IMG/VR virus record: IMGVR_UViG_3300023440_000007
Coordinates: 1 to 61,254 of that record
Direction: 5' to 3' (one strand)
Length of the DNA: 61,254 nt
Origin: a virus
The notes beneath the pieces were generated by a model that worked only from the letters and a program-made list of their open reading frames with translations, had not been told where the DNA came from and ran no database searches. Position numbers and translations under genes: made by a program. Below, one piece after another: positions 1,586 to 41,603 of the stretch (positions are counted from its first letter, which is position 1; each line of letters begins with the position of its first letter).

Positions 1586-1661
1586 TGGCCCTCCCTCTAG
1601 GATTCGAACCTAGAACCTACGGTTTAGAAGACCGTTGCTCTATCCATTGAGCTAAGGGAGG
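1586..1661 (-). tRNA. tRNA-Arg(UCU)
   Basis: Complete cloverleaf on the minus strand. Acceptor CCTCCCT (1661-1655) pairs with AGGGAGG (1596-1590), discriminator G, CCA encoded (1588-1586). The anticodon loop CTTCTAA is flanked by ACGGT/ACCGT and gives UCU. The T-loop TTCGAAT is canonical. Its 5' part also contains the stop codon of the overlapping gene 1652-1903. Confidence 0.95.
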
Positions 1662-1903
1662 AAGAGTTCTCTAATAATAAGGAATGAATCTGACCTAATT
1701 CCATGAACATTAATCCTATCAGCGCTGAATATAGACTTGACAACCTGCTGCCAATACATATGGCCTTCACGAGTCTTCCTTAGAGAAAATGGGAACACTG
1801 CTCCAGATACAGACGTCCTTTCATCAGATGTAAAAGGCATATAGTGGACCTTGAAAGTCTTCAAGACTTCAGGACTATCATATAGCAATGAAAAGCTTCT
1901 CAT
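1652..1903 (-). CDS. EGYW-family small protein embedded between two tRNAs
   Basis: 83 aa with motif KTREGHMYWQQVVKSI and an FPFSLR lead-in. The ATG shares its A with the last base of the tRNA-Leu CCA end (CC-ATG), and the TAG stop lies inside the 5' part of tRNA-Arg. Maturation of either tRNA would therefore cut this message. Translation must precede processing, or the tRNA ends define the mRNA ends. Confidence 0.72.
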   Translation of the reverse strand: MRSFSLLYDSPEVLKTFKVHYMPFTSDERTSVSGAVFPFSLRKTREGHMYWQQVVKSIFSADRINVHGIRSDSFLIIRELFLP

Positions 1904-1979
1904 GGTGCCCGTCCTGGGACTCGAACCCAGACTTGCGAGATTTTAAGTCTCGCTCCTCTGCCAATTGGGATAGACGGGC
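1903..1979 (-). tRNA. tRNA-Leu(UAA), short variable loop
   Basis: Acceptor GCCCGTC (1979-1973) pairs with GACGGGC (1913-1907), discriminator A, encoded CCA (1905-1903). The anticodon stem-loop CGAGA-CTTAAAA-TCTCG gives UAA, and the T-arm is CTGGG-TTCGAGT-CCCAG. The variable region is only about 5 nt, whereas bacterial tRNA-Leu normally has a long variable arm. It is therefore a class I-like leucine tRNA or has altered charging. Confidence 0.88.
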
Positions 1980-1984
1980 ATTAA

Positions 1985-2236
1985 TCACCACTTGTCTACC
2001 CTAACAAGATACGCATTAGGAGAATTGGAAAAGAATCTCATCCTACTTATATCAATCATATTTGTCATACTATACAGGACGCCTGACCAATAGTCAAATC
2101 CCTCAACCGAGTCTTCCAAGGAGAATGGACAAACAATCGTATGAGTCTCCCTGAGGTCGAAATTGACAAATCTAAATACTCTAGACCTGATCATTCTTTT
2201 ACGACTATGAGTCCATCTCTTCATGGAGCTACCCAA
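1985..2236 (-). CDS. EGYW-family small protein
   Basis: 83 aa. The motif is divergent, EDSVEGFDYWSGVLYSM (V for R before EG), after CPFSLE. The gene starts inside the end of the next gene (16-nt overlap) and stops 5 nt before tRNA-Leu. Confidence 0.72.
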   Translation of the reverse strand: MGSSMKRWTHSRKRMIRSRVFRFVNFDLRETHTIVCPFSLEDSVEGFDYWSGVLYSMTNMIDISRMRFFSNSPNAYLVRVDKW

Positions 2237-2493
2237 TAGTACAAATACTCATCCACATCTTTCATTTCAACGATCCTATACTGTGCACCTAGAAATCTAG
2301 AAAATACTTCTAGCCAATATGTCTCACCTTCATTAGAAGTAACTATTGGAAAAGGAGACAATACGAAGTACTCAAATCCATTGGGCGGGGAAGAAGTGCA
2401 TACTATATTCACTGTCTGATACATGTATATGTTCAATACGGATTCTATCTCTCTAAGAGATGAATAAAATCTTCTTTTCTTACAAGAATCCAT
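2221..2493 (-). CDS. EGYW-family small protein
   Basis: 90 aa; motif TSNEGETYWLEVFSRFL after LSPFPI. It begins within the last codons of the 2480-2713 gene (14-nt overlap), which implies translational coupling. Confidence 0.72.
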   Translation of the reverse strand: MDSCKKRRFYSSLREIESVLNIYMYQTVNIVCTSSPPNGFEYFVLSPFPIVTSNEGETYWLEVFSRFLGAQYRIVEMKDVDEYLYYWVAP

Positions 2494-2713
2494 TAGAACA
2501 CAAACAAAAGAATACTCTCTTCCAGTATTGCTTACCCTCTCTCAGGACGTCTATGTAAAATGGCAGATTAATCTCTCTGTAATAGTATCTTCTAGCATCA
2601 TTTGTGTCCTGCTCATAATAGCAGAAGACCGGGACATATCTATTCCTTCCTATAGGCTTTCCTCTAACATGAGAATATTCATATCTAACTAATTCATTAC
2701 CCATCAAAAACAC
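2480..2713 (-). CDS. EGYW-family small protein
   Basis: 77 aa; LPFYIDVLREGKQYWKRVFF, ending 10 residues later with a Cys-rich FFCLCSNGFL tail. The N-terminus is rich in Arg and Tyr. It overlaps its upstream neighbour by 10 nt. Confidence 0.75.
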   Translation of the reverse strand: MFLMGNELVRYEYSHVRGKPIGRNRYVPVFCYYEQDTNDARRYYYREINLPFYIDVLREGKQYWKRVFFCLCSNGFL

Positions 2714-2916
2714 CTCTCCCCTATAGAGTCAAAGACATAATACCAATATGAATTGCCCTCCCTGGAAACATTAGAGGAAAACGGAGCCAGATGCGAATTC
2801 TTCCTATTGATAGGCTGCGCAGGAATTGCAATGAATCTGCGACCGTCTTTATAGATTATCCAATACTTCCTGCCATGCATATAGACTTTCTTTAAGACCT
2901 TTGTCATATCAAACAT
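2704..2916 (-). CDS. EGYW-family small protein
   Basis: 70 aa; APFSSNVSREGNSYWYYVFD. A basic N-terminus (MFDMTKVLKKVYMHGRKYW) precedes a short beta-type segment, then the motif. It is separated from the next upstream gene by 4 nt. Confidence 0.75.
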   Translation of the reverse strand: MFDMTKVLKKVYMHGRKYWIIYKDGRRFIAIPAQPINRKNSHLAPFSSNVSREGNSYWYYVFDSIGERCF

Positions 2917-2920
2917 CCAA

Positions 2921-3118
2921 TCAAAAAATCAGATAACAAGCATCCCTACTGATGTCTGAGATAGACCTGAAAACTGAGTTCCAATATAAATTGCCTTCCC
3001 TTGTGATAGAAGAATCGAATGGAGCCGATACTGATTCTATATATCTGTAATCACTTCCTCTGTCTATACCCTTCCTATGATATCTGATCATAAGAATTGG
3101 AGGAAAAGTCTCACTCAT
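2921..3118 (-). CDS. EGYW-family small protein
   Basis: 65 aa; APFDSSITREGNLYWNSVFR then SISDI. The APF-x-S-x-[I/V]-[S/T]-R-E-G run matches the preceding gene closely, so the two look like recent duplicates. The start overlaps the stop of the next gene (ATGA). Confidence 0.77.
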   Translation of the reverse strand: MSETFPPILMIRYHRKGIDRGSDYRYIESVSAPFDSSITREGNLYWNSVFRSISDISRDACYLIF

Positions 3119-3297
3119 CTAGTGAGACTAACCCTGGAAAAGTCTATCATCTCAGAGTCATTTCTATAAGCTATTATAGAGAAAATGTGATCCCAATATG
3201 ACCTGCCCTCTCTAGTGAGATTGATATCAAAAGCAAGGTATGGATACCTATAAACTATGTGATCCTTATGTATTACCGTAGACATCGAAACGGTCAT
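3115..3297 (-). CDS. EGYW-family small protein
   Basis: 60 aa; LAFDINLTREGRSYWDHIFS. Coupled by ATGA overlaps on both sides. Confidence 0.77.
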   Translation of the reverse strand: MTVSMSTVIHKDHIVYRYPYLAFDINLTREGRSYWDHIFSIIAYRNDSEMIDFSRVSLTR

Positions 3298-3500
3298 CTA
3301 TTGGGGTATGATTGTCTGATAGAAAGAGTGCATTGGCCGTATTTGAGTATAGTCTCATGCTCATCAATCTCTGTAAGAGAATGAAAGACGTGCTTCCAAT
3401 ACCCATCACCTTCTACAGCCAGACTTATATCGAAAGGAATCTCATAGCTTTTGTATAGAAATCCACCAGATGAGACTTCCTTTTTAGTCCATGCGAACAT
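3294..3500 (-). CDS. EGYW-family small protein
   Basis: 68 aa; IPFDISLAVEGDGYWKHVFH then SLTEI. The basic residue before EG is replaced by V. A 60-nt gap to the next gene breaks the overlapping chain here. Confidence 0.75.
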   Translation of the reverse strand: MFAWTKKEVSSGGFLYKSYEIPFDISLAVEGDGYWKHVFHSLTEIDEHETILKYGQCTLSIRQSYPNR

Positions 3501-3560
3501 GAGAACAAACTCTTCACAATATCTACAGGATATACGACTGCAAAACCAAGTCTGTGCAGA

Positions 3561-3836
3561 TTATGACTCTATATGATCATAATATACAGAAGATATATGA
3601 CGCATGATACGCTCTAAGTGATGATTCAGATGAAGATAGGAATAATCTGGCAGACTCCTTAGAACATATCTCCAATAGTACTTGCCTTCTTGGGCTCTGT
3701 CCATAGCGAATGGAAGCCTGAGCCCTCCTCTGAAATCAAACTTGTTTATTGCCGGTCTGTTGTCAACGAATATGCAGACGTGGGTTCTCGCACCGTTAGA
3801 GTATGTTATATACATGGACTTCTTGTATTTCTTCAT
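3561..3836 (-). CDS. EGYW-family small protein
   Basis: 91 aa; LPFAMDRAQEGKYYWRYVLR then SLPDYS. It has a longer N-terminal domain and a His-rich tail (LHLNHHLERIMRH). Its start overlaps the stop of the next gene. Confidence 0.73.
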   Translation of the reverse strand: MKKYKKSMYITYSNGARTHVCIFVDNRPAINKFDFRGGLRLPFAMDRAQEGKYYWRYVLRSLPDYSYLHLNHHLERIMRHISSVYYDHIES

Positions 3837-4090
3837 GAAGATTCCCTAAGATCGAAAAATCTATTGCAGAGTTGTAGGATATCCAAGTCGTAGAGTCTTA
3901 TGAAGACATACTTCCAAAATAGAGGATGCTCCCTGCACAACCGAAAATCGGCAGGGATATACACTTCATCGTATACGACCTGCTGTTCATCTATGACTAT
4001 GAGCACAGGCTTTGAGTACTCTGTCGTATACTTCTCCATCTCTATGGAGTATGAGAAGAAAGACCTCTCAAGCCTGTGGTTGCTTATCAT
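3833..4090 (-). CDS. EGYW-family member with degenerate motif
   Basis: 85 aa. The motif reads RLCREHPLFWKYVFIRLYDL: EH-P-L-F-W replaces EG-x-x-Y-W, while the flanking F-R-L and V-F-x-R-L positions are kept. This is the clearest case of the glycine and tyrosine being lost, and it is useful for testing which residues matter. Confidence 0.65.
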   Translation of the reverse strand: MISNHRLERSFFSYSIEMEKYTTEYSKPVLIVIDEQQVVYDEVYIPADFRLCREHPLFWKYVFIRLYDLDILQLCNRFFDLRESS

Positions 4091-4292
4091 CAGTATTCAT
4101 CTTCCTATGTATGCGCCAATAGACCTCTAGCCAGTACTCTGCTCCTTCTCTGAACATATTATATCCAATCCAATTCATCCAGTCTATGGGAATATTCACA
4201 TTATCATGCACATGATCAGAGATATAGCTCTCAAGCTCCTTGTCCATACATTCTGGGATATAGGAATAGTCGTCTAACTTTACCCATCTCAT
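4068..4292 (-). CDS. EGYW-family small protein, MKWV/WRIHR subfamily
   Basis: 74 aa; begins MRWVKLDDYSYIPE and carries NMFREGAEYWLEVYWRIHR. It belongs with 5370-5600 and 5575-5793 by the shared M-[R/K]-W start, a W-I-x-x-x-G segment and the WRIHR ending. Confidence 0.77.
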   Translation of the reverse strand: MRWVKLDDYSYIPECMDKELESYISDHVHDNVNIPIDWMNWIGYNMFREGAEYWLEVYWRIHRKMNTDDKQPQA

Positions 4293-4477
4293 ACTTCTAG
4301 TATCTTCTTATATCTGATGAAGACTTGTCTCCAATAGTCATCTCCTTCACGCGTCCTGGCATATGCGAATGGAGTGACCGCCCATAGCTCCCATGACCCC
4401 AGCTTATCTGCAAGACCTACGAACACGCTTCCTTGAGGATTGATATAGGATATATGTGAACAGAAATGCTTCTTCAT
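4289..4477 (-). CDS. EGYW-family small protein
   Basis: 62 aa; TPFAYARTREGDDYWRQVFI then RYKKI. The N-terminus contains a GSVFVGLADKLGSWEL strand-like region. ATGA overlap with the downstream gene. Confidence 0.77.
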   Translation of the reverse strand: MKKHFCSHISYINPQGSVFVGLADKLGSWELWAVTPFAYARTREGDDYWRQVFIRYKKILEV

Positions 4478-4499
4478 ACATAGTCTCCATATGTAGAAA

Positions 4500-4745
4500 T
4501 CAATTCCTCTGAGATATGAAAGTCTGTATGTCTTGGATCTCCCTTTCTATGATCTTACCTGTTACGCATAACCAGTACTGAATGCCTTCTCTGGATCTAG
4601 CAGGTAAGAATGGGAATAGAAGATCTTCGCTCCAATCTTCTCCATAATATGTAAAGAACGTCTCAGATTTGTGCTCGCTGCGCCAGAAGAATCCAGCATA
4701 GTCTACCCTCCCATCTGATAGAATCTTCTTGACTATCGTTCTCAT
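4500..4745 (-). CDS. EGYW-family small protein
   Basis: 81 aa; LPARSREGIQYWLCVTGKII. The upstream 55 nt contain an AGATCCAAATTTT segment that resembles repeats at 6.88-7.03 kb and may be a leftward control element. Confidence 0.73.
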   Translation of the reverse strand: MRTIVKKILSDGRVDYAGFFWRSEHKSETFFTYYGEDWSEDLLFPFLPARSREGIQYWLCVTGKIIEREIQDIQTFISQRN

Positions 4746-4799
4746 GATCCAGATCCAAATTTTATTTGTGTGAAATTTCCTAGAAAATAGATGCCCTCC

Positions 4800-5009
4800 T
4801 CAGGTTCTCGCTATGCGTCTATATAGATACCCTAGCCTATTCTGACCTGTAATGCGGTAGATCCTCCTGTAAATGCAATCCCAGTACTTTGGACCTTCCC
4901 TGGAAAAGTCGGGAACGAATGGAGAATAGATCACTCCTTCCCCTAAATAGATTGGACAAAGACTAGGACTCTTCCTGAGCCTATCGTCTAGAGGCTTGAA
5001 TTTTATCAT
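4800..5009 (-). CDS. EGYW-family small protein
   Basis: 69 aa; VPDFSREGPKYWDCIYRRIY. Followed by a 54-nt gap without a gene. Confidence 0.75.
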   Translation of the reverse strand: MIKFKPLDDRLRKSPSLCPIYLGEGVIYSPFVPDFSREGPKYWDCIYRRIYRITGQNRLGYLYRRIART

Positions 5010-5056
5010 AGAGTCACTGCTTCAACGCTCTGACTTATTGAATAGATCTGTCCAGC

Positions 5057-5386
5057 TCAATCCCCAGAACTCTTCCCCTTATCATCCTTTTTCTGTTGTT
5101 GTCGAACTTCACCAATGACCCAGAACGATGACCAGTGACACGTGAATCTGTTGAATGCGACACAGTGATAGGCTTTATAGCCGTCTTTTGCGACATATTC
5201 TTTCCAAAACCTTATCTCATTGACTTTCTTGAACAAATCTTGTTTAATTTCAACATCTTCTACATATCTGAATTTATACGGTTCAAGCCAGATCCAATAC
5301 TCTCCTATCTTCACTGGAATCACAGCGTATCTATGTATGTATTCCTGTCTAGTAGACCTCTTCTTTACTTCAGCCTTGAATCTCAT
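5057..5386 (-). CDS. Small phage protein (EYWIWLEPYKF type)
   Basis: 109 aa, not an EGYW member despite its position. The core is VKIGEYWIWLEPYKFRYVE followed by KVNEIRFWKEYVAKDG and a Lys/Gln-rich hydrophilic tail (RQQQKKDDKGKSSGD). Short phage proteins with an EYWIWLE-x-Y segment are familiar but uncharacterised. Its start overlaps the neighbouring EGYW gene by 17 nt, so it is part of the same leftward unit. Confidence 0.7.
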   Translation of the reverse strand: MRFKAEVKKRSTRQEYIHRYAVIPVKIGEYWIWLEPYKFRYVEDVEIKQDLFKKVNEIRFWKEYVAKDGYKAYHCVAFNRFTCHWSSFWVIGEVRQQQKKDDKGKSSGD

Positions 5387-5600
5387 CTCTCATTCCCAAG
5401 AGCCTATGAATCCTCCAATACACATCAGACCAATATTCACTGCCTTCTCTGAACCTGCATACTCCGACCAGAGCTATCCAGTTTATGTAGCCACATGCAT
5501 CAAATCTGTGAGAATCGACGTACTGAGCAAGGTCTTCATCTTGACTGTAGAATCTATATTCAGAATACCCAGATTCATTTATTTCCATTATCCACTTCAT
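5370..5600 (-). CDS. EGYW-family small protein, MKWV/WRIHR subfamily
   Basis: 76 aa; MKWIMEINESG start, NWIALVG, then FREGSEYWSDVYWRIHRLLG. Overlaps the next gene by 26 nt. Confidence 0.78.
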   Translation of the reverse strand: MKWIMEINESGYSEYRFYSQDEDLAQYVDSHRFDACGYINWIALVGVCRFREGSEYWSDVYWRIHRLLGMRDEIQG

Positions 5601-5793
5601 TCAAGAGCCTGTGAATCCTCCAGAATACTTCAAGCCAGTATTCCCATCCTTCTCTGAATTTCTCATATCCTACCGCCGCTATCCATTCTGCATATTCACA
5701 TCTCTCATATCTGTTCTTTTTGACGTATTCATCCAACTCCGCATCATTGGAATGCGGATCATATAGAGCAGATCCAGTTTTTACCCACTTCAT
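5575..5793 (-). CDS. EGYW-family small protein, MKWV/WRIHR subfamily
   Basis: 72 aa; MKWVKTGSALYDPHSNDAE, then EWIAAVG and FREGWEYWLEVFWRIHRLLN. Together with 5370-5600 it gives the best consensus of this branch and marks the promoter-proximal end of the run. Confidence 0.78.
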   Translation of the reverse strand: MKWVKTGSALYDPHSNDAELDEYVKKNRYERCEYAEWIAAVGYEKFREGWEYWLEVFWRIHRLLNEVDNGNK

Positions 5794-5844: not shown

Positions 5845-6345
5845 TCAGAATATTTCCATAAAGGATTTTATGAACTCTACTGCGACCTGCGGCACGATCG
5901 CGTTCCCATAGGCGCGCAGTCGTCCCACTCGGTTGGGTATCCCATGAGCCAGCGGGAATGAGCCGGGTTCAATACGTCTCGCTTTTCCGTCTCTGCACCA
6001 TACGAGTTCGTACTCGTCCCAGAAACCAGAGTTACTTGCATACTTAGGGGTTTCCCTCTTCTTTGTTTCCAGCGTCTCTGATTGAATTCGTCCGATGCCT
6101 TCTCGCTTTTGTAGTCTCTTGCCGTTGGCGTCGCCCAACCGCTCAGATCTATTAAATGAACTATGTCTTCTACTGACCATTGTCTCTTCTTTTTGCTTAG
6201 ATCCCTCTTCCTGCCTGTTTCTGTAGCGCAGGGAGTCGGCCACCCACCAAAGCCTTTGTCGGATGTGCGGCGCGCCGACGCTCGCAGCGCAGATATCTGC
6301 GGTCCCGACGGCATATCCCATCTTTTCCAAGTCAGAGCGTACTCT
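5845..6345 (-). CDS. DNA cytosine-C5 methyltransferase, C-terminal part (after +1 frameshift)
   Basis: Read after skipping one base at the UAG that ends the upstream frame, this segment starts [20 protein letters not shown]. It contains motif VIII ([13 protein letters not shown]), a hydrophilic target-recognition region, and motif X ([18 protein letters not shown]), about 166 aa. Joined to 6344-6730 it gives a methyltransferase of about 294 aa, normal for small phage Dcm-type enzymes that methylate cytosine C5 using S-adenosylmethionine. Upstream the frame is open to 6552, but no start is needed if a frameshift occurs. The alternative is a pseudogene or assembly error. Confidence 0.75.
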
Positions 6346-6730
6346 AGAGCCATACCCTTCCATCCTTCGAAGCAACCTGCTCTCCAAACACCGTTGGAGG
6401 TTTGCACTCAAGTATGATCTGTTTCCATACCGGCCATAGATGCCTTGGGTCTTTCTCAGCTTGTCGCTTCCCTGCGGCCGAGAACGGCTGACAAGGACAT
6501 GATCCTGTCCATACTTTCTTTCCTTCAGGCCATCCAGCAATTTCAAGCGCATAGGCCCATCCTCCTATCCCAGCAAAGAAGTGGCATTGAACATAATCAT
6601 CAAGAGCTCCAACATCTATGTCTTCTATACTCCTATTGTCTATATATCCTTCTTGTATGAGCCCTTCCTTCATCAAATTCTCAAGCCATCTACACACATA
6701 CGGATCATTGTCATTGTAATACGCAGCCAT
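6344..6730 (-). CDS. DNA cytosine-C5 methyltransferase, N-terminal part
   Basis: 128 aa holding motif I ([18 protein letters not shown], AdoMet binding), motif IV with the catalytic cysteine ([10 protein letters not shown]) and a motif VI equivalent ([11 protein letters not shown]). It ends VWL-stop exactly where relatives continue. The final codons are CUC UAG A, a plausible +1 slippage site like the RF2 frameshift (CUU UGA). A slip would place the ribosome in the frame of 5845-6345. Confidence 0.82.
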
Positions 6731-7225
6731 TGTTCAATGTCTAATCCCAATGATTACTCATTGCGTACATATTAGCCATAAATTCTCAGACTTGAGGAAA
6801 TATCTTATAGAAGAGTCTAGCACTTGAGCAATTGTATATGGAGTAAACAGTATAGGCTGGAGTCTCAGGTATATAGTCTCAGATCCAAGGATTCAATTCT
6901 CAAGCCTAATCTCAGATCCAAAATTTGTGTGATGGAATTTTTGTATTCTTAGTATGTGGAGTTCAATGAGTAGAGTTCTTGGTGTCAAGATCTCAGATCC
7001 AAAAATTTCATGAGGGGATTTTTGGGTGACCCAGGGTGTGCCAGTGCGCGCAATGCGCGCATAACCCGCCCCCCGTACCACCTATAGGCGCATAGGCCAT
7101 TGCTGCGCCTACAAGCCGCGTACACGCGCACTAGGCATTGTGCAGTACCTAGTACCGCACCAGGCCACAACGCGCACCACGCGCGCTTGTAGGGGCGTTG
7201 TGGCCATACCTAGCAGGCATGGTAC
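6731..7225. other. Gene-free stretch: methyltransferase upstream region and TCTCAGATCCAA repeats
   Basis: AT-rich until 7027, then abruptly GC-rich. It holds three direct copies of TCTCAGATCCAA (6877, 6910, 6991). The last is followed by an imperfect hairpin of CCAAAAAT and ATTTTTGG arms (6999-7026). No ORF with a family resemblance is visible. The portion after 7030 contains no GA or TC dinucleotide. Confidence 0.5.
6877..7026. repeat. TCTCAGATCCAA direct repeats (three copies)
   Basis: Copies at 6877, 6910 and 6991. The second and third continue into AT-rich tails (AAAATTTGTGTGATGGAATT and AAAAATTTCATGAGGGGATT). A related AGATCCAAATTTTATTTGTG lies at 4751. They probably serve as leftward regulatory sites or terminators; the function is not established. 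Confidence 0.45.
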
Positions 7226-7230
7226 AGGCA

Positions 7231-7264
7231 CAACAAAACCCCCGCGCCTACATGGTGCGGGGGC
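7231..7264 (-). terminator. Intrinsic terminator of cassette 1
   Basis: On the minus strand CCCCCGC / GCGGGGG (7263-7257 and 7245-7239) with a loop of about 11 nt, followed by TTTTGTTG. It terminates the leftward transcript of 7362-7793. Confidence 0.75.
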
Positions 7265-7361
7265 TTGGTTTGGGTTTGGCCCGCTTACTTATGCGGGCCG
7301 GTTTGCCTTACCACTAGGCGCGCACGCCACCTAGTGGCAAGGGGCGCGCAGCATGCTAGCG

Positions 7362-7793
7362 TTACTTGTTGTAACGCTTAGCAAGCGCAGCATACACCGC
7401 GCGCGCCGCCGCTATAGTAGCGGCCAAGCTGGGCGCGGGCATACCGGGCTTGCACGCAGGCGCGTGCTTGGCCACCAGTTTAGTGGCCGCAGCAACATGC
7501 TGCGGGGCCACAAACACGGCATGGCCATGCTTGTGGTACCAGCTAAACTGGTGCCGCACGCCTGCGGCACGCCAGGCACCCTGCATAGTGGCCATAGTAG
7601 CACCGCTATGCTGCGCCAACAAACGCCCCTTTAACTGGGCGCCTGCGGCACGGTAAGGGTACCCCGGGCAAGCGCACACAACACAGTGTGCGCCCGCCTT
7701 GGGCGCTTGGGCGCTTGGCACGCCAGGCCAGGCCGCCGCAGCGGCCATAGTGGCGTAAAAAGCGCCAGGCGTGGTAGGTGCCTGCATGGGCAC
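7362..7793 (-). CDS. Cassette 1 protein, no acidic residues
   Basis: 143 aa, Ala-rich, with HCVVCACPGYPYR at about residues 36-48 and a YHKHGHAVFVAPQHV segment. It contains no Asp or Glu at all, because every GAN codon is excluded by the GA/TC-free sequence; Ser is only AGY and Phe only TTT. A GCAAGGGGG ribosome site precedes the ATG, matching the GCAAGGGG of neighbouring cassettes, and a terminator follows. It is therefore very likely a genuine gene although I recognise no family. The predicted protein is strongly basic and could bind nucleic acid (inference). Confidence 0.6.
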   Translation of the reverse strand: MPMQAPTTPGAFYATMAAAAAWPGVPSAQAPKAGAHCVVCACPGYPYRAAGAQLKGRLLAQHSGATMATMQGAWRAAGVRHQFSWYHKHGHAVFVAPQHVAAATKLVAKHAPACKPGMPAPSLAATIAAARAVYAALAKRYNK

Positions 7794-8017
7794 AACCCCC
7801 TTGCCAATTAGTGCGCGCCGCCCCGCACCAGGCCTGGCCGCCCCGCGCGGCCAGTAAGTACACTACCACAACTACGCGCGCGTAGGCGCGCAATGTTTGC
7901 ATACCAGCCATGCAACAAACGCATACCACCTGCGGGTGTAACACACGAAAACGCAATACAACCCACAGTTGCACAACCACAGGTTGTGCGCCACACAACC
8001 AAAACACGTGCATACTT

Positions 8018-8082
8018 GCATAGGTTTGCAAGTATGCAAATGCGTCTCTCACAACTTGCGTATGTGCATAGGTTTGCAAGTA
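8018..8082. repeat. Direct repeat GCATAGGTTTGCAAGTA (two copies)
   Basis: Identical 17-mers at 8018-8034 and 8066-8082, 48 bp apart; ACTTGC/GCAAGT arms let the first copy fold. They lie in the cassette 1 5' UTR. Confidence 0.7.
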
Positions 8083-8122
8083 AGCAAGCGTGCAAGTGGG
8101 CGCAGACGCGCCGTTGACCCGA

Positions 8123-8410
8123 CGCTTGTGTGACCGCTGGATGATTTGGACCTAGTGTGAACACTGGATGACTGAGCGCTTGTGAACTCGCTGGACGGTT
8201 CTCTCTTCTACGCTGAAGATGCCGTGAGTGAAGAGTTCCTCCTCTTCATCATCAAAGAAGATGAAGAGACATGAAGAACTCGTCTTCATCTTCTTTGATG
8301 AAGAACTCACGCACTGGAGTTAGGGTCAAATTTTTTGACAATGAACTTGTGATTCCGCTGGATGATTTGGATCAATATATATGACTAAGAGCTTGTGACT
8401 CTGCTGGATC
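8123..8410. promoter_or_regulatory. GCTGGAT repeat cluster (cassette 1)
   Basis: Copies of the pattern CTTGTGATTCCGCTGGATGA-TTTGGATCAATATATATGA at 8123-8152, 8164-8200, 8346-8382 and 8391-8410. They lie between the terminator of the 8471 gene and the cassette 1 UTR, where a promoter is needed. On the minus strand each copy offers TTGATCC, then ATCCAGC, then CACAAG/CATACT. Confidence 0.5.
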
Positions 8411-8432
8411 ATCTTCTTTGATACTGTACGGC

Positions 8433-8463
8433 AAAAGGGTAGCGGACTGACTGCCCGCTACCC
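8433..8463 (-). terminator. Terminator of the Csx16-like gene
   Basis: GGGTAGCGG (8437-8445) / CCGCTACCC (8454-8462) stem with TTTTGCC on the minus-strand 3' side. Confidence 0.75.
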
Positions 8464-8470
8464 CTGCGGC

Positions 8471-8770
8471 TTAGGAGTCCAGCGCCGTAACCTGGTAAGT
8501 CACAGGCGGCTGAGCGTACTGCCTAACCTGTTCGAGCGTGAGCTCCTTGCCACGCAAGTTGGGCGGCAGGTTAAGCGGAATCTCCGTAACCTTGGTGGCA
8601 AGCGCTGCCAAGTGCAGCGGGAGGACGCCAATAACGTGCTTACCGGCGATCTCCCTGGCAGGATCCGTCACGTGCATAATGCACGCAACGGTGCCCTGGT
8701 CGTCAATAAGCCCCAGCTCCTTAATGTACGAGAGCAGGGCCGGATGGCGTGTAACGATGACCTTTTCCAT
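8471..8770 (-). CDS. Csx16-like protein (CRISPR type III accessory / ring nuclease family)
   Basis: 99 aa. The conserved order of the Csx16 (VVA1548) family is visible: TRHPALLSYIKELGLID at about 7-23, a central H-V, then GKHVIGVLPLHLAALATKV at about 43-61, and PPNLRGKELTLEQVRQYA at about 69-86. Csx16 proteins accompany type III CRISPR systems and have been reported as ring nucleases that degrade cyclic oligoadenylate. A phage copy outside any cas context could dampen type III signalling (inference). It has its own leader, ribosome site and terminator. Family assignment is good; activity is untested. Confidence 0.72.
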   Translation of the reverse strand: MEKVIVTRHPALLSYIKELGLIDDQGTVACIMHVTDPAREIAGKHVIGVLPLHLAALATKVTEIPLNLPPNLRGKELTLEQVRQYAQPPVTYQVTALDS

Positions 8771-8811
8771 CTTTGTTACCCCTTGCTAGTTGCTAGGCGG
8801 TATTGCCTAGT
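8771..8811 (-). promoter_or_regulatory. Conserved leader hairpin and ribosome site
   Basis: Stem CTAGGC (8793-8798)/GCCTAG (8805-8810) with loop AAUACC on the mRNA strand, then ACUAGCAAGGGG ending 8 nt before AUG. Upstream is the shared block CAAACGCAAATCCAAAGTGC (8839-8858). Confidence 0.7.
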
Positions 8812-9083
8812 GTTTGCAGCGTAGTAGGGCAGACTGTCAAACGCAAATCCAAAGTGCATCAGTCGAAAAGAAGATGCATCTGAGGAGGCATCATCAAACA
8901 GGAAGACGTGTCTGAGGAGGCATCATCATCTTTGAAAATGAGATCAGAGAAGCTGACTTGGGTCAAATTTTTTGATAGGACGCTTGTGAAATCGCTGGAT
9001 CAATTCGATTGACTGGGTCAATATATATGACTGAGGACTAGTGTGAGCGCTGGATCATCTTCACGGATGCTGGCGGGCAGCAG
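8811..9083 (-). other. 5' UTR and promoter region of the Csx16-like gene
   Basis: No gene. It holds the CAAACGCAAATC block, GAAGATGCATC/GAGGCATCATC palindromic pieces, and GCTGGAT repeats at 8981-9011 and 9035-9060. Confidence 0.5.
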
Positions 9084-9111
9084 TAAGGGGGCCAGGATCC
9101 TGGCCCCCTTA
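9084..9111 (-). terminator. Palindromic terminator
   Basis: Perfect 28-bp palindrome: TAAGGGGGCCAG / CTGGCCCCCTTA around GATC. No clear U-tract follows on the minus strand, so it may act as a stabilising 3' hairpin. Confidence 0.6.
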
Positions 9112-9116
9112 GTGGC

Positions 9117-9365
9117 TTAAGCCGTAAAGCCGGTTTCGATCCCGCCCCCGTACTTACGGCAAAAAGCCACGATCCGCAGCTGCCGCTTGGGCATAACGGC
9201 AACCGCGCGGTTACCGAAGACCGTGTGGTTGTGGTAGGCCCACACGGCGTCGACGATCTGCTGCGGCTTAAAGCCAAGCAGCAGGCCGCGAACGAACGAT
9301 GACAGCGGCAGGGTAACGCCCTGCCAGCTGATCCAAGTACCATGCCTGGTAATTTCGATCTTCAT
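9117..9365 (-). CDS. Cassette 3 hypothetical protein
   Basis: 82 aa: MKIEITRHGTWISWQGVTLP, a middle WAYHNHTVFGNRAVAVMPKR and a C-terminal CRKYGGGIETGF. Not recognised. The shared leader and ribosome site (GCAAGGGGTAAATGCT before ATG) and the terminator beyond the stop support it as a gene. Confidence 0.7.
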   Translation of the reverse strand: MKIEITRHGTWISWQGVTLPLSSFVRGLLLGFKPQQIVDAVWAYHNHTVFGNRAVAVMPKRQLRIVAFCRKYGGGIETGFTA

Positions 9366-9370
9366 AGCAT

Positions 9371-9408
9371 TTACCCCTTGCTAGTTTTGGGCAGCACCAT
9401 TGCTGCCC
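9371..9408 (-). promoter_or_regulatory. Conserved leader hairpin and ribosome site
   Basis: Stem GGGCAGC (9389-9395)/GCTGCCC (9402-9408), loop AAUGGU on the mRNA; then CUAGCAAGGGG. A second small hairpin, TGCCAgcaTGGCA, lies just upstream (9412-9424). Confidence 0.72.
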
Positions 9409-9735
9409 ATGTTGCCAGCATGGCAGGGTGGATTTTCCATTGCAAATCCTTTATGTATCCGTCAACAAAGAAGACAGCGCCTCAGACGCATCATAAGGAA
9501 GGAAGAAGTTAGAGTTGCATTCATCTTCTATGATGAAGATAACTCGAATAGGAGGCTGAATCATCTTTGAAGATGACATCATGCGAATTGAACAGACTCA
9601 AAATATCTGACTGTGAACTAATGATTCTATTGGATGATTTCGGTCAAATTGTATGAGAGAAGGCTAGTATGACTGCTGGATGATTTGGATCAACACATAT
9701 GAACTAGAGCTTATCCATTCGCTGGATGGTTTCCT
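9409..9735 (-). other. 5' UTR and promoter region of cassette 3
   Basis: No gene. Holds a reverse TTCGAGTTATC box (9538-9548) next to a GATGAAG hairpin, and three GCTGGAT repeats (9616-9645, 9663-9700, 9705-9732). Confidence 0.5.
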
Positions 9736-9764
9736 CAAAAAGTGTTGGGGCCTACCTGGCCCCA
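9736..9764 (-). terminator. Terminator of cassette 4
   Basis: TGGGGCC / GGCCCCA stem (9746-9752, 9758-9764) with a five-A tract at 9737-9741, that is a U-tract on the transcript. Confidence 0.78.
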
Positions 9765-9776
9765 TAGTCAAGCCAA

Positions 9777-10325
9777 CTACTTGTTGGCGTAAATCGGCAA
9801 CTGCACGTTGCCGGGTCGTCTGTATTTGTACTGCGTTACGGCAGCCAGCATCCTGTAGGCGCAAGCCGTAACCTTAAGCGGGTCAGCGGCGGCAAGGCGG
9901 GCCGGTCCAACCAGGGCCTTGGCCAGCTCAATATGCTGCCGCTTAACCCAAATGGCGGCGGTCAAAGCAAGGCCGTCAATGCAAACGGCCACGTCGCCAA
10001 ACGGCTTGGCCCAATCAGGGGCCTGTCGTTCCGGGTTATTGTCTCCCCAAAACAGCGTAAGGCCGTCGTCCACGCTGGCAACATGCTGCAAAGCCGTGCT
10101 GTACAGCTTGCGCATGTCATCGTAGGGCAGGTCAAATGCCCCAAGCGCGTGGTCAATAACCTGCGTGGGCAGGTCGTAGGCATTGCCATACACCCACACA
10201 GGGTACAGGTCTTCCTGGCGGGCAATAATGGCAAAATCGCCAAACACGCCGCCGTAGCCGTCGTCGTCCCCGTTGGGCACGTACGCGGCCAAGTCATCGT
10301 ACAAGCTGGTTGTGTTGTTGGTCAT
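9777..10325 (-). CDS. Cassette 4 hypothetical protein, mRNA without UC
   Basis: 182 aa, acidic at the N-terminus (MTNNTTSLYDDLAAYVPNGDDDGYGG), with VWVYGNAYDLPTQVIDHALG in the middle. No family recognised. The plus strand has no GA dinucleotide anywhere from 9726 to 10383, so the coding strand has no TC: Ser is only AGY, Phe only TTT, Ile never ATC, Leu never CTC. Unlike cassette 1, GA is allowed on the coding strand and Asp is abundant. Confidence 0.75.
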   Translation of the reverse strand: MTNNTTSLYDDLAAYVPNGDDDGYGGVFGDFAIIARQEDLYPVWVYGNAYDLPTQVIDHALGAFDLPYDDMRKLYSTALQHVASVDDGLTLFWGDNNPERQAPDWAKPFGDVAVCIDGLALTAAIWVKRQHIELAKALVGPARLAAADPLKVTACAYRMLAAVTQYKYRRPGNVQLPIYANK

Positions 10326-10330
10326 CGCTA

Positions 10331-10365
10331 AACCCCTTGCTAGTGCTGTGGCCCCATTGCCACAG
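10331..10365 (-). promoter_or_regulatory. Conserved leader hairpin and ribosome site
   Basis: Stem CTGTGGC (10346-10352)/GCCACAG (10359-10365), loop AAUGGG on the mRNA, then CACUAGCAAGGGG upstream of AUG. Confidence 0.72.
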
Positions 10366-10646
10366 TACCCACACTAATAGGGCTGATAATCAAACACAAA
10401 TCTAAAATGCATCTATCCCATTGGAAGATAACACGAAAAGGGCGTTGAATCTTCTTTGAAGAAGATGCCTCTATGCGTACCTCATCATCTTTGATGGGGA
10501 TGCTTATTCACACTTCATCTTCTTTGATGAAGATTTGGCGTCTAGTTTGTCTTGTTATAAGAGGATGAGCTTGTATGACCGCTGGATGATTTGGATCAAT
10601 ATATATGATAGGAAGCTTGTGATTCCGCTGGATGATTTGGATAGCC
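10366..10646 (-). other. 5' UTR and promoter region of cassette 4
   Basis: No gene. Shared CAAACACAAATCTAAAATGC block (10393-10412), GAAGAAGATGC hairpin material, and two GCTGGAT repeats (10568-10605, 10613-10640). Confidence 0.5.
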
Positions 10647-10680
10647 AAAAAGAAGGGGCAGGCTTTGATGCCTACCCCAA
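10647..10680 (-). terminator. Terminator of cassette 5
   Basis: GGGGcAGGC / GCCTaCCCC stem with an A-tract at 10647-10651 (U-tract on the transcript). Confidence 0.72.
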
Positions 10681-10686
10681 ACAAGC

Positions 10687-11109
10687 CTAGATATACGGCC
10701 GACCATCCCCGCCTGGGCCTACCATGCCGTACAGCCCATTAGCGACGAAGGCGCAAGCCTTAGCCAACGACTTTTTGTTAACGGTGGAGCAGAACACCCT
10801 GCTGCCTACCTGGATAGTGCTGGAACACACCCTTACGCCACACAGATCTACATACCGTATGGCAAAACTAAAGTGCGCATGCGGAACTACGGCGAAGTAG
10901 CCCACATTGACCAACACCTTAAACCGCTGTATGACGTTCTCCACCTGCTGATACTCACCATTTACCAAATGCGTACCAGCAGTGAAGCGTTCCAGATCCG
11001 CCAGCTTTAGCCAGCCAACCCGACTGAGGACCTGGCACAAAACCGGCAGTTTGCTGGGATCGTCGCTGTGAGTAACCACGCACAGCGCATACAGGTTACG
11101 ATTTTCCAT
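10687..11109 (-). CDS. Cassette 5 hypothetical protein
   Basis: 140 aa, MENRNLYALCVVTHSDDPSK..., Cys-containing and predicted mixed alpha/beta, with a Gly-rich C-terminus (GMVGPGGDGRPYI). Not recognised. The leader ACUAGCAAGGGG is present. No GCTGGAT repeat lies upstream, unlike most cassettes. Confidence 0.7.
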   Translation of the reverse strand: MENRNLYALCVVTHSDDPSKLPVLCQVLSRVGWLKLADLERFTAGTHLVNGEYQQVENVIQRFKVLVNVGYFAVVPHAHFSFAIRYVDLCGVRVCSSTIQVGSRVFCSTVNKKSLAKACAFVANGLYGMVGPGGDGRPYI

Positions 11110-11119
11110 AGTTTTTTAC

Positions 11120-11150
11120 CCCTTGCTAGTGTTATGGCACCATTGCCATA
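11120..11150 (-). promoter_or_regulatory. Conserved leader hairpin and ribosome site
   Basis: Stem TATGGC (11133-11138)/GCCATA (11145-11150), loop AAUGGU, then CACUAGCAAGGGG. Confidence 0.72.
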
Positions 11151-11222
11151 GTAACAGCCTAGTAGGGCTGAATATCAATAGCAAATCATAAATACTTCAG
11201 TCAATTAAGACTCAAAGGCCGC

Positions 11223-11250
11223 TTCGAGTTATCTTCATCGTAGACGAAGA
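11223..11250. repeat. TTCGAGTTATC box with hairpin
   Basis: TTCGAGTTATC at 11223-11233 followed by a TCTTC..GAAGA hairpin; a member of the nine-copy repeat set. Confidence 0.65.
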
Positions 11251-11293
11251 ACAATACTCTACCGCAATCATCCACGTAGAAGAGACATACAGT

Positions 11294-11327
11294 CAAAAAG
11301 AAGGGGCGAGTTTTGATACTCACCCCA
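11294..11327 (-). terminator. Terminator of cassette 6
   Basis: GGGGcGAGT / ACTCaCCCC with an A-tract at 11295-11299; near-identical in design to the terminator at 10647. Confidence 0.74.
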
Positions 11328-11347
11328 AGTTGCCTAGCAGGGGGAAG

Positions 11348-11458
11348 CTAGTACAGGAACTTGGCGGTAGCGATAATGCCCACGCCGAACACACCGCCAA
11401 GAATCAGAGACCCTATGGCTGCCAGGCCGAGGATAATTGCGGCTTCGAGCTTATGCAT
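11348..11458 (-). CDS. 36-residue membrane peptide
   Basis: MHKLEAAIILGLAAIGSLIL followed by GGVFGVGIIATAKFLY: one long hydrophobic helix with a charged N-terminus. The ATG (11458-11456) lies inside the last codons of the upstream gene, giving an 8-nt overlap (ATGCATAA) and hence translational coupling. A terminator follows directly. Small single-helix phage peptides can act as lysis, exclusion or toxin-like factors, but nothing here selects among these. Confidence 0.65.
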   Translation of the reverse strand: MHKLEAAIILGLAAIGSLILGGVFGVGIIATAKFLY

Positions 11459-11828
11459 GGTTTAACGCCTCCTTAGCGCGCTTGATGGTATCGCCGTACA
11501 GGGAGGCCAGCGCATTGTACAGCAGGAGCGACATGGCATAGTGCGGTTCCATGCCGATGCTGTGCGCTTGGCTGTGGACAGCCGCTGGCCACGAGCTGCT
11601 AAGCAGGTCGTCGACGCGCTGCACATCCCTGGGGTGAATGAACACAACCTTGCCTTCGTACAAGGCCGTGGTGCTGTCGAGCTCGTGGTCCCACACAGGC
11701 CCAAGGATTACACGGTGGGTGCATCCCGCAGCCTTGAGGTCGTCCACGGTTGCCTGCCCATCAGCCGCCAGGCGGTATGCCCGATAGACGGGCTGGGCAA
11801 GCTTCAGCATATCCTGAATGTCTTGCAT
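11451..11828 (-). CDS. Cassette 6 hypothetical protein
   Basis: 125 aa, MQDIQDMLKLAQPVYRAYRL, with a HRVILGPVWDHE segment and a helical C-terminus. Not recognised. The only cassette that is bicistronic, with the 36-aa membrane peptide coupled to its stop. Confidence 0.72.
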   Translation of the reverse strand: MQDIQDMLKLAQPVYRAYRLAADGQATVDDLKAAGCTHRVILGPVWDHELDSTTALYEGKVVFIHPRDVQRVDDLLSSSWPAAVHSQAHSIGMEPHYAMSLLLYNALASLYGDTIKRAKEALNHA

Positions 11829-11837
11829 TGCTTAATC

Positions 11838-11869
11838 CCCTTTGCTAGTTGCATGGCTTGCTTGCCATG
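11838..11869 (-). promoter_or_regulatory. Conserved leader hairpin and ribosome site
   Basis: Stem CATGGC (11852-11857)/GCCATG (11864-11869), loop AAGCAA on the mRNA (the loop differs from AAUGGU), then ACUAGCAAAGGGG. Confidence 0.68.
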
Positions 11870-11963
11870 TTGCCAGCATGGCAAAGGTGATTATCAAACG
11901 CAAATCTAAAGTGCGTCAGTCGCAGCGGAAGAGAAACCCTCGTGGCTGGTCGTCTTTGATGAG

Positions 11964-11974
11964 GATAACTCGAA
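11964..11974. repeat. TTCGAGTTATC box (reverse orientation)
   Basis: GATAACTCGAA followed by TAGCGGGTTGAATCATCTTT, an extension shared with the copy at 12822. Confidence 0.6.
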
Positions 11975-12039
11975 TAGCGGGTTGAATCATCTTTGAAGAG
12001 AAGCTGCGAGGCGGCATCGTCTTCTTGGATACCTCGAAA

Positions 12040-12070
12040 CAAAAAGAACCCCGGCCTACCTGGCCGGGGA
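12040..12070 (-). terminator. Terminator of cassette 7
   Basis: CCCCGGCC (12049-12056)/GGCCGGGG (12062-12069), loop TACCT, A-tract on the plus 5' side and TTTT on the 3' side, so it could act in both directions. Confidence 0.78.
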
Positions 12071-12080
12071 TTTTGCTTGG

Positions 12081-12545
12081 CTACGTGCCAAGACGCCAGC
12101 CCAACAGCGCGCCGTAGACGGCGGCGGCAAGCTGGGCCGACGGAACCGTACCCTGCAGCGCACCAGCCAAGGACTGGGCGGCGCTGCGGTCCTGCTTGCG
12201 CGGGAACACGGCGCAGTAGTACATCAGTTCGTTAACCGCCGGGCCGTAGTCCTGCTCGAAGTTGGGCAGCAGGTTTTCCATTTCCCGCATGGCCAACACA
12301 AAGTCGTCTTTGTTGTTGGCCATAAAGCCGCGCAGGTTTGCCCAAGTATCCTGCACGCTTCCCGTGCTGCACTCAGCAAGCGCAGCAACAAAAGCGGCCA
12401 GGTCATCCGGCAACGGCTTAGCGGAAAACACCCAAACCGGGACCGGACCAACCTGCTGCATCAACTTAGGCCAGCCCGGCCAATCAGGGTGCATGTTGTC
12501 GTTACGCACCCTAAGGATTTCGCTGTAGTACTGGTAAGCATCCAT
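12081..12545 (-). CDS. Cassette 7 hypothetical protein
   Basis: 154 aa, MDAYQYYSEILRVRNDNMHP start, a PVPVWVFSAKPLPDDLAAFV middle and an Ala-rich C-terminus (LAAAVYGALLGWRLGT) that could lie along a membrane or pack as a helix. Not recognised. Confidence 0.72.
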   Translation of the reverse strand: MDAYQYYSEILRVRNDNMHPDWPGWPKLMQQVGPVPVWVFSAKPLPDDLAAFVAALAECSTGSVQDTWANLRGFMANNKDDFVLAMREMENLLPNFEQDYGPAVNELMYYCAVFPRKQDRSAAQSLAGALQGTVPSAQLAAAVYGALLGWRLGT

Positions 12546-12552
12546 TGGTTAA

Positions 12553-12585
12553 TCCCCTTGCTAGTTGCTAAGCACCATTGCTTAG
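12553..12585 (-). promoter_or_regulatory. Conserved leader hairpin and ribosome site
   Basis: Stem CTAAGC (12568-12573)/GCTTAG (12580-12585), loop AAUGGU, then ACUAGCAAGGGG. Confidence 0.72.
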
Positions 12586-12999
12586 TGTGCCCATGCTAGT
12601 AAGGGGGACTTTCAAAGGCAAATCCAAAGTGCATCAGTCAGGCCGGACTCAAAACAGCTCTGCTGGCTCATCTTTTGCGAGTCACAGCGCCATTCGAGTT
12701 ATCATCATCTATGATGAGGAACAGTACTCTGCTGCAATCATCAGTCCTGATTCATTAGCCTATTCGAGTTATCTTCATCGTAGACGAAGACAAGTGAGTG
12801 CAAATCTTCTTCGCTGAAGAGGATAACTCGAATAGCGGTTTGAATCATCTTTGATGAGGCAATCATCTTCATGATGATGAAATGCCTGGCAAGCTCATCT
12901 TATATGAGATAGAGCTTATGAATCCGCTGGATGATTTGGTCCTAGCGTGTGAACTAGAGCTTATGGATTTGCTGGATCAATTGGATAGACATATACCGT
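12586..12999 (-). other. 5' UTR and promoter region of cassette 7
   Basis: No gene. Contains TTCGAGTTATC boxes at 12693 and 12763 (forward) and 12822 (reverse), each beside a GATGA/GAAGA hairpin, the AAAGGCAAATCCAAAGTGC block, and GCTGGAT repeats at 12912-12942 and 12956-12986. Confidence 0.5.
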
Positions 13000-13032
13000 C
13001 AAAAAGATGGGCGGGGCATTGAGCCCCGCCCG
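13000..13032 (-). terminator. Terminator of cassette 8
   Basis: Perfect 9-bp GGGCGGGGC (13009-13017)/GCCCCGCCC (13023-13031) with a five-A tract before it. Confidence 0.8.
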
Positions 13033-13052
13033 ATGGCCGCCTGGCAAGGGGT

Positions 13053-13601
13053 TCAGGCAGCCGCGTCGCTGGCCTGCTCGTTAACGAGCACCGGCACCGG
13101 CGGTGTGGACTCGGCCTTGGGCTTGGCCTCCTCCTTGGGCTTCTCCTTGGGCGTAATGGCGTCGACCAGGGCCTCATAAAAGCCCATGAACGCCTGCTTC
13201 CTAGCCGCCTCGAAGTTGGCCCGGAAGCTGGTAGCCTCGCCCTGGAACTTCTTGCGCCCCACCTTCAGCGCCCCGTCACTGCCGATGGACACGGCGTAAC
13301 GCTTGGCAAACTGAAGCGCCTTGCGCGTGTGGGTGGGATGGACCAGCGCCACGAAGCAGTTCTTGTAGTGCCAGGACAAGCCCCACCTGTCGCGCGGGAC
13401 GCTGCGCTTGCTGAACGCCTGGTTCAGCTCCCCCACGGTCTTGCCGGGGTTGTGGGTAATCACGTCCCACTTGACCGGGGCCGTGTCCCCACGGGGATTG
13501 TAACCCTCTCCCACCAGGGGGATGGCCACCGCGCAGCCCGCGTTGAGCATGCCACGGTAGCTGTTCTTCAACTCGCTGGCCTTGTAATAGGTATCACGCA
13601 T
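13053..13601 (-). CDS. Cassette 8 hypothetical protein with Pro/Lys/Glu-rich tail
   Basis: 182 aa. The first 130 residues look folded (NSYRGMLNAGCAVAIPLVGE, RWGLSWHYKNCFVALVHPTH). They are followed by a low-complexity hinge, PKEKPKEEAKPKAESTPPVP, and an Ala-rich end. Not recognised. The leader is the least conserved of the set, with GGAGGAAACA before ATG and no AAUGGU loop. Confidence 0.74.
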   Translation of the reverse strand: MRDTYYKASELKNSYRGMLNAGCAVAIPLVGEGYNPRGDTAPVKWDVITHNPGKTVGELNQAFSKRSVPRDRWGLSWHYKNCFVALVHPTHTRKALQFAKRYAVSIGSDGALKVGRKKFQGEATSFRANFEAARKQAFMGFYEALVDAITPKEKPKEEAKPKAESTPPVPVLVNEQASDAAA

Positions 13602-14330
13602 TGTTTCCTCCTTTGCTGCTAGATGCGCGGCACTAACTGCACCGCCCTATGGTTTGCAGCATGGCAGGGTTGATTGTCAGTTGCAAATCTAAAATGGCTG
13701 CATTTTTGTGAGGTGGGACGGCTCATCAACCTTGAGTCAAACCGCTATTCGAGTTATCTTCATCGTAGAGGAAGAACACAGCCCTATATATTATATAAAG
13801 TGCGCCAATTCGTCAAAGCTGAGTCATTGGCCTATTCGAGTTATCCTCATCAAAGAGGACTCAAAGCCCTATTCGAGTTATCTTCTTCAATGAAGAACGT
13901 ACTCGTTTTGTTTCGGATCATCTTTTTTGATGATACCGCATCCTCATCATGATGAGGATCTATGGGAATGACACCCGACATTACGCTAGAGTATGAGCTT
14001 GCATATGAGCTGGATTGATTCAAAATATCTTCATTTTGAAGATGAACATGACGGTTTTTTGTCATTTTTCGGATTCACAAACTTCATCCAGCTAAGTCAT
14101 TGTAAAACAACAAAACACGATCGCGTGTCTCAAGCGGGGCAGACGTCGTTTTTGGACCGTGTTTCATCTTCATCCATGACGCTTTTGAATCATAAAATCT
14201 TCCTCATGAAGAAGACATTCCACACTTGAACCGGAATCCATGGAATGATGCCAGAGGTTTTGTATGAAAGTGAGCTAATATGACCGCTGGATGAGCCTGT
14301 ACACTCCCATACTTTAGACCCAAAAAAGAC
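13602..14330 (-). other. Upstream region of cassette 8
   Basis: No gene. TTCGAGTTATC boxes at 13748, 13835 and 13872; hairpin ATCATCttttttGATGAT near 13917-13934; a perfect 20-bp palindrome ATCCTCATCATGATGAGGAT at 13940-13959; GCTGGAT repeats at 13996-14022 and 14272-14300. The short open frames here are not supported. Confidence 0.55.
13748..13900. repeat. Three TTCGAGTTATC boxes with hairpins
   Basis: Boxes at 13748-13758, 13835-13845 and 13872-13882. Each is followed by a different short hairpin (TCATCGTAGAGGA, CTCATCAAAGAGG, CTTCTTCAATGAAG), so the box is constant while the stem changes. Confidence 0.65.
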
Positions 14331-40690: not shown

Positions 40691-41245
40691 ATGTCAGTTA
40701 TGTCAGACACATGGATAAAAGACATGGTTATTAAGCACGATATGATCACGCCATTCATTGACCATCTTGTTAAAGATGGCTGTATATCGTATGGATTATC
40801 ATCGTATGGATATGATGTAAGAGTATCAAATCACTTCAAAATCTTCACTGACGTTGATTCTGTAATCGTCGATCCAAAAAAGTTTTCCGATAAGAGTTTC
40901 GTGAATAGGACATTGGAGGAGTGTATAATTCCTCCAAACAGCTTCGTCTTAGCGACTACGGTAGAATGGTTCAAGATACCGAGAGATGTGATGGCATTCT
41001 GCGTGGGCAAGTCTACATACGCAAGAATAGGCATCTCTGTCGGCTGTACCCCATTAGAGCCCGAATGGTCAGGACAGATAACTCTGGAATTGGCTAATAC
41101 CACACCGATTCCAGCAAAGGTCTATGCCAATGAGGGGATCGCACAAGTTATCTTCTTTAAGGCTGACAAGGAATGTTCTGTGTCCTATAAGGATCGTAAA
41201 GGGAAGTACATGAACCAGATAGGAGTAACTCCAGCAAAGATATAG
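40691..41245 (+). CDS. dcd: dCTP deaminase
   Basis: 184 aa. [14 protein letters not shown] at about 34-47, then [20 protein letters not shown] and [20 protein letters not shown], the trimeric dUTPase/dCTP deaminase fold with the catalytic Glu in L-E-L. Converts dCTP to dUTP (some relatives also to dUMP), feeding the ThyA-like enzyme downstream. Fits a thymine-modifying phage. Shares an intergenic region with the divergent lipoprotein. Confidence 0.88.
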
Positions 41246-41531: not shown

Positions 41532-41603
41532 AATAGATTCAAAAATGATTTGCTTATCAAGGCCGGTTATGTAATGGTAATGGCCTTCTTAGAGGGGAGA
41601 ACG

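Follow-up and report, generated by a model that had tools for sequence, protein, structure and literature searches.

In phages M6, ViI, and phiW-14, the pattern of sites that resist restriction points to a hypermodified thymine in TG or TC, a specificity credited to a 5-hydroxymethyldeoxyuridine (5hmdU) kinase (PMC6449724). SP8 DNA treated with the kinase became resistant only where a site included TG/NG or TC (PMC7653180). Transcription by E. coli RNA polymerase of an hmU template treated with 5-HMUDK was 10% of the hmU level and 37% of that obtained with natural DNA (PMC6457204). hmU itself boosts transcription and glucosyl-hmC templates are still transcribed; bulkier base modifications typically prevent promoter recognition (PMC11550810). 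The corresponding genes of YuA, M6, Sonora, and Pam3 follow one order, namely, a putative kinase, HMUDK_hel (5-hmdU DNA kinase helical domain protein), further genes, a thymidylate synthase (TS)/hydroxymethylase, and the DNA polymerase, some of them bearing other names in their records.

Predicted thymine-modification genes of the window

The window analyzed here, i.e., the whole stretch of 61,254 nucleotides, contains a tight modification operon at 43635-46412, behind which lies a family A DNA polymerase. The operon encodes, on the plus strand, an HMUDK_hel protein (43635-44549; PF18723, E 2.2e-45), a TAGT-family DNA glycosyltransferase (44546-45364; PF20691, E 3.2e-7; phrog_842, E 2.2e-36), and a TS-family protein (45351-46412; phrog_5131, E 2.1e-115), and a dCTP deaminase is encoded on the same strand at 40691-41245 (PF22769, E 9.5e-33; phrog_1663, E 2.3e-61). 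Homologues of the HMUDK_hel protein are present in YuA (about 31% identity), M6 (28%), Sonora, and LuckyBarnes, and no solved structure matched it by sequence. The TS-like protein, 46.6% identical to YuA gp17, which is annotated as a putative deoxyuridylate hydroxymethyltransferase, is probably a dUMP hydroxymethylase.

HMUDK_hel, TS/hydroxymethylase, and DNA polymerase occur here in an order matching that of the M6/YuA, ViI, and phiW-14 type, but the M6/YuA type has a kinase or another modification gene where this phage has the TAGT glycosyltransferase. No P-loop kinase was recognized beside HMUDK_hel in this record, which is a fragment, and the TAGT gene stands in its place. We infer that HMUDK_hel and TAGT act as a pair, an arrangement suggesting that the role of the helical domain may extend to directing nonkinase enzymes, for instance in a bacterial virus that glycosylates hmU at specific sequences. 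Brevibacterium phage LuckyBarnes similarly has HMUDK_hel, TAGT (two matches), and TS clustered near its DNA polymerase, and no description of its base chemistry was found in the literature searched.

A minus-strand gene unit without GA and TC

At a locus 36 kb from this operon, the sequence-only reading had described 917 bp without the GA/TC step, and direct counting bore this out, with neither GA nor TC occurring in 7030-7946. The maximal run free of both words on both strands measures 919 nt (7029-7947) and is flanked by a GA on the left (7028-7029) and another on the right (7947-7948). Base composition predicts about 105 occurrences (the sequence-only reading expected roughly 100), and the window-wide rate predicts 142. 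Elsewhere, 1,167 sampled segments of 917 bp contained between 77 and 181 GA/TC (mean, 144), and the window as a whole has 9,487; these counts rule out chance as the cause. The second-longest GA/TC-free run of the window (98 bp, 7948-8045) directly abuts the main one, and the third-longest is 69 bp. When all words of 2 to 4 bases were compared, the gap of GA/TC far exceeded every other in extremeness, and the words ranking next at 7030-7946 all include GA or TC.

The return to normal flanks, previously described as abrupt, is so at the left edge only; the right edge is gradual. A strongly depleted extension (7948-8105) consists of the 98-bp free run, a TCTCTC at about 8044-8050, and a 56-bp free run. 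Since the GA at 7947 and this TCTCTC are the sole occurrences from 7030 to 8105, the depleted unit amounts to ∼1.08 kb. No comparable gap was found in 13 stretches (558 kb) of phages with related modification genes, in which the product of gap length and rate reached at most 16.4 across the ten dinucleotide steps, versus 142 here. The absence of GA/TC is genuine and very unusual.

As the sequence-only reading had proposed, the run covers coding and noncoding DNA alike; it spans one full minus-strand unit composed of an upstream region, a ribosome site, a gene (g0), a terminator-like hairpin, and a folded downstream segment. The g0 open reading frame (ORF) (7362-7787, start ATG at 7787) has 141 codons, and its product contains 40 Ala but no Asp and no Glu. 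In DNA that lacks TGA, the length of the ORF is no proof of a gene, because 27% of simulated random GA-free sequences reach 141 codons. However, g0 is homologous to g7, another gene of the minus strand (13053-13601) with a normal GA/TC content (50) and 18 Asp/Glu (Smith-Waterman score of 67, with shuffles averaging 30.7; z 7.2; 0/400 shuffles), and this homology does prove g0 to be a gene. A ribosome-site-like GGCAAGGGGG (7796-7805, minus strand) is the counterpart of the CTAGCAAGGGG found 5' of most sister genes when upstream sequences were compared, and the layout of the site resembles that of the sister cassettes. Downstream of the ORF, further hairpins precede the terminator-like hairpin (7239-7263), which is followed by TTTTGTTG on the minus strand but was listed by the hairpin scan on the plus strand only. 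Beyond it lies a noncoding, highly structured, GA/TC-free segment (7030-7238); folding of 7030-7260 on the minus strand, terminator-like hairpin included, gave −129.9 kcal/mol (z −3.7). Upstream of g0, a repeat search identified two imperfect direct repeats with a TGCATAGGTTTGCAAGTANGCAA core (8006-8095), possibly regulatory.

Homology to g7 makes g0 the last member of an eight-gene minus-strand array, whose seven sister cassettes (g1 to g7, 8440-13960) have, unlike g0, ordinary GA/TC and Asp/Glu contents. Comparison of the leaders revealed a promoter-like block, ATTTGY-N4-GANNNTC, upstream of all seven sisters (8832-13688) and absent upstream of g0; in the sister leaders it is followed by a hairpin and usually by ACTAGCAAGGGG. 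Outside the array, the exact block occurs once in the window (5222-5238), and it is probably an array-specific promoter. The g1 product (8471-8770, minus strand) matches the Csx16/Cas_VVA1548 family (PF09652, E 3.8e-18), which is counted among the type III CRISPR ring nucleases (PMC12409355). A phage gene of this family possibly serves counter-defense, and the match suggests an array devoted to counter-defense or host takeover.

Searches for relatives of g0, g7, the terminase, and the array leader retrieved none from the viral contigs searched, nor were relatives of g0 found in the genomes searched or relatives of g0 and g7 in the phage and plasmid records searched. No orthologous cassette of g0 was present in the collections searched, and pattern searches with an array repeat and an upstream repeat returned chance matches or nothing. 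A single genome matched the leader pattern and was discarded, as the sequence itself looks unrelated. AlphaFold models of g0 (pLDDT 42) and of g7 with g0 (pLDDT 42) were too poor for a fold search.

Several other loci drew our attention. A C5 cytosine DNA methyltransferase lies across two overlapping minus-strand frames (6344-6730 and 5845-6552, together 5845-6730) and is broken or frameshifted. The minus strand also carries an array of short paralogues (1652-5793; about 60 to 110 amino acids) with an REGxxYW-like motif, most of them in separate small ORFs. Between the genes of the g0 array (8200-14250) are GA/TC-rich repeats (GATCCAAATCATCCAGCGG and TCATCTTCTTTGAT inverted repeats), which may serve recombination or regulation. 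The segment 14380-14790, which separates the leftward array from the rightward genes, has no obvious gene and looks structured, and it gave no Rfam match at the gathering threshold. A weak Sigma70_r2 match was recorded at 41550-42158.

Nature of the constraint and rival explanations

Because neither word occurs on either strand and the gap reaches beyond the gene, the terminator, and the promoter region, the constraint most likely acts on duplex DNA through an asymmetric two-base target. Transcripts lacking the cleavage word of an mRNA interferase are a known principle, and by this precedent the g0 transcript alone might escape an enzyme that cuts mRNA at GA and UC. Yet avoidance of a single-strand word would have left one of the pair intact on the sense strand, and an interferase-immune transcript would lack its word on that strand only and within its own limits. 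The absence seen here affects the two strands and extends into the flanks, which recognition of a word on a single RNA strand does not explain; we consider RNA-level immunity very unlikely. The earlier suggestion of a mutational or editing process fared no better. A targeted process, e.g., a TC-directed deaminase that stripped all TC/GA, would hit both strands, and its targeting could set the bounds. We therefore compared the stretch with a maximum-entropy model of the same composition in which GA/TC is forbidden. This plain ban predicted the other nine steps well: TA (52 observed versus 58 predicted), GC (153 versus 134), and CA/TG (154 versus 136) were all close, the largest deviation was a deficit of CC/GG (169 versus 207; −2.6 in Poisson units), and no single replacement step was in surplus. 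A deaminase footprint would consist of a TT/AA excess and of E/D converted to K/N, but AA/TT was not in excess (69 versus 75), the Asp/Glu positions of g7 aligned to Ala, Arg, Gly, Pro, or Thr in g0 rather than to Lys or Asn, and the segment has 64% GC, above its neighbors. Mutational erasure is thus improbable, slightly more so than RNA-level immunity. A sequencing or assembly artifact seems the least likely explanation of all: the record is a single metagenomic contig, with neither a relative nor raw reads, but the cassette contains a coherent gene, a ribosome site, a terminator-like hairpin, and homology to g7, and a base-calling error would have left one favored replacement.

Selection against a short target in double-stranded DNA (dsDNA), as the sequence-only reading had put it, could concern cleavage or modification. 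Strand symmetry, the inclusion of noncoding DNA, and the 5hmdU-type operon make a modification target the best-supported option, with a cleavage target as a possible alternative. The main rival is that the cassette evades a dsDNA enzyme of the host or of a competitor attacking GA/TC, with g0 encoding an inhibitor that has to be expressed under attack. Candidate attackers are a nuclease, a DddA-like TC-specific dsDNA deaminase, an ADP-ribosyltransferase, or a similar enzyme. DddA is a TC-specific dsDNA deaminase, and a two-base asymmetric target in duplex DNA suits an enzyme of that kind; in addition, the Csx16/Cas_VVA1548 match within the array makes a counter-defense role plausible. On the other hand, the remainder of the genome, with its thousands of GA/TC, would still be exposed and no such defense was identified, so we hold this explanation to be unlikely, although it is the strongest of the alternatives. 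Next in rank, and more doubtful, is an unmodified cis-acting site (for replication origin, packaging, or regulation) serving proteins that need undecorated DNA, with g0 being incidental. The direct and inverted repeats at 8006-8095 and the strongly structured segment 7030-7260 are consistent with such a site, but the repeats fall in the less strict part, whereas the ban is strictest over the gene, which pays for it with all its Asp and Glu. Avoidance of a CRISPR protospacer-adjacent motif (PAM) was also considered, TC-type PAMs being known, but TC abounds everywhere else in the genome, and the idea was dropped for this reason.

A candidate modification-free island and its relation to known systems

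Our preferred reading, to which we assign a probability of roughly 40%, is that the cassette (7030-7947, looser to 8105) forms an island free of modification in the genome of a phage that hypermodifies the thymine of TpC, such that its gene stays transcribable. The dCTP deaminase and the TS homologue would supply 5-hydroxymethyl-dU, the DNA polymerase would incorporate it, and HMUDK_hel with the TAGT glycosyltransferase would decorate hmU after replication, only where T precedes C. Because every TC pairs with a GA on the opposite strand, a duplex with neither word would have no decorated base. TG is plentiful in the stretch (61 and 93 on the two strands), so the specificity must be for TC only, unlike the TG/TC specificity of M6. 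The bulky decorated thymine would impede RNA polymerase, and the g0 unit would remain readable by the unmodified host enzyme. g0 could be read upon entry of the decorated genome or after shutdown of the decorated sisters, its product acting at the same stage, and the sister promoters would respond to decoration, since GANNNTC puts one target on each strand. Somewhat more tentatively, we propose that the genome is decorated at every TpC thymine and that one TpC-free unit evolved as a bootstrap gene for the unmodified host RNA polymerase.

The modification-free reading is favored by the strand-symmetric loss of a single asymmetric dinucleotide from the entire unit, promoter region and flank included, by the agreement of the other steps with a plain ban, and by the conservation of GANNNTC in all seven sister promoters and its absence from g0. 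Further points in its favor are the operon and dCTP deaminase of this genome, arranged as in yuavirus-type thymine-modification loci, and the published TG/TC targeting and reduced transcription after kinase treatment. Against it, the seven sister genes are unprotected, no such island was found in the other HMUDK phages examined, and GA/TC is not specially favored outside the run, where a synonymous-shuffle test gave +5%, no more than for AG/CT or CA/TG. The abundant TG of the island, the P-loop kinase search that recognized none beside HMUDK_hel, the failure to find an orthologous cassette in the collections searched, and the published transcription of hmU and glucosyl-hmC templates also count against it. 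If TpC decoration is real, the cassette would be the sole undecorated kilobase of this record, the most useful consequence being that unmodified host RNA polymerase could always read g0, and the missing step would disclose which sites the DNA-modifying enzyme of the phage itself recognizes. A modification-free island would also mean that DNA hypermodification has a cost that shapes gene sequence, that gene reading in phages with bulky bases becomes testable on one cassette, and that modification specificity can be deduced from sequence in uncultured viruses.

A gene unit without one of the ten dinucleotide steps was found neither in the literature searched nor in the 558 kb of related phage DNA; its link to base hypermodification is a specific and testable hypothesis, whose mechanism we infer. 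The M6/YuA, ViI, and phiW-14 type resembles the present phage, as we read it, in having a dinucleotide-level target, but in contrast to the latter, no dinucleotide-free island was present in the M6, YuA-type, or Ackermannviridae stretches examined or, for GA/TC, in the first 50 kb of LuckyBarnes. Eukaryotic glycosylated hmU, which sets RNA polymerase stop sites and is chemically similar to the proposed phage product, is made via JBP dioxygenases rather than a hydroxymethylase and is not defined by a dinucleotide, unlike what we propose for the phage. Phages are known to lose restriction sites under selection, but that avoidance, in the known cases, thins words of 4 to 6 bp genome-wide, whereas here a 2-bp step is gone from one gene unit. 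In phage T4, base modification decides through Alc which DNA is transcribed; there the unmodified DNA is acted on by a protein, whereas here the discrimination would reside in the gene's own sequence.
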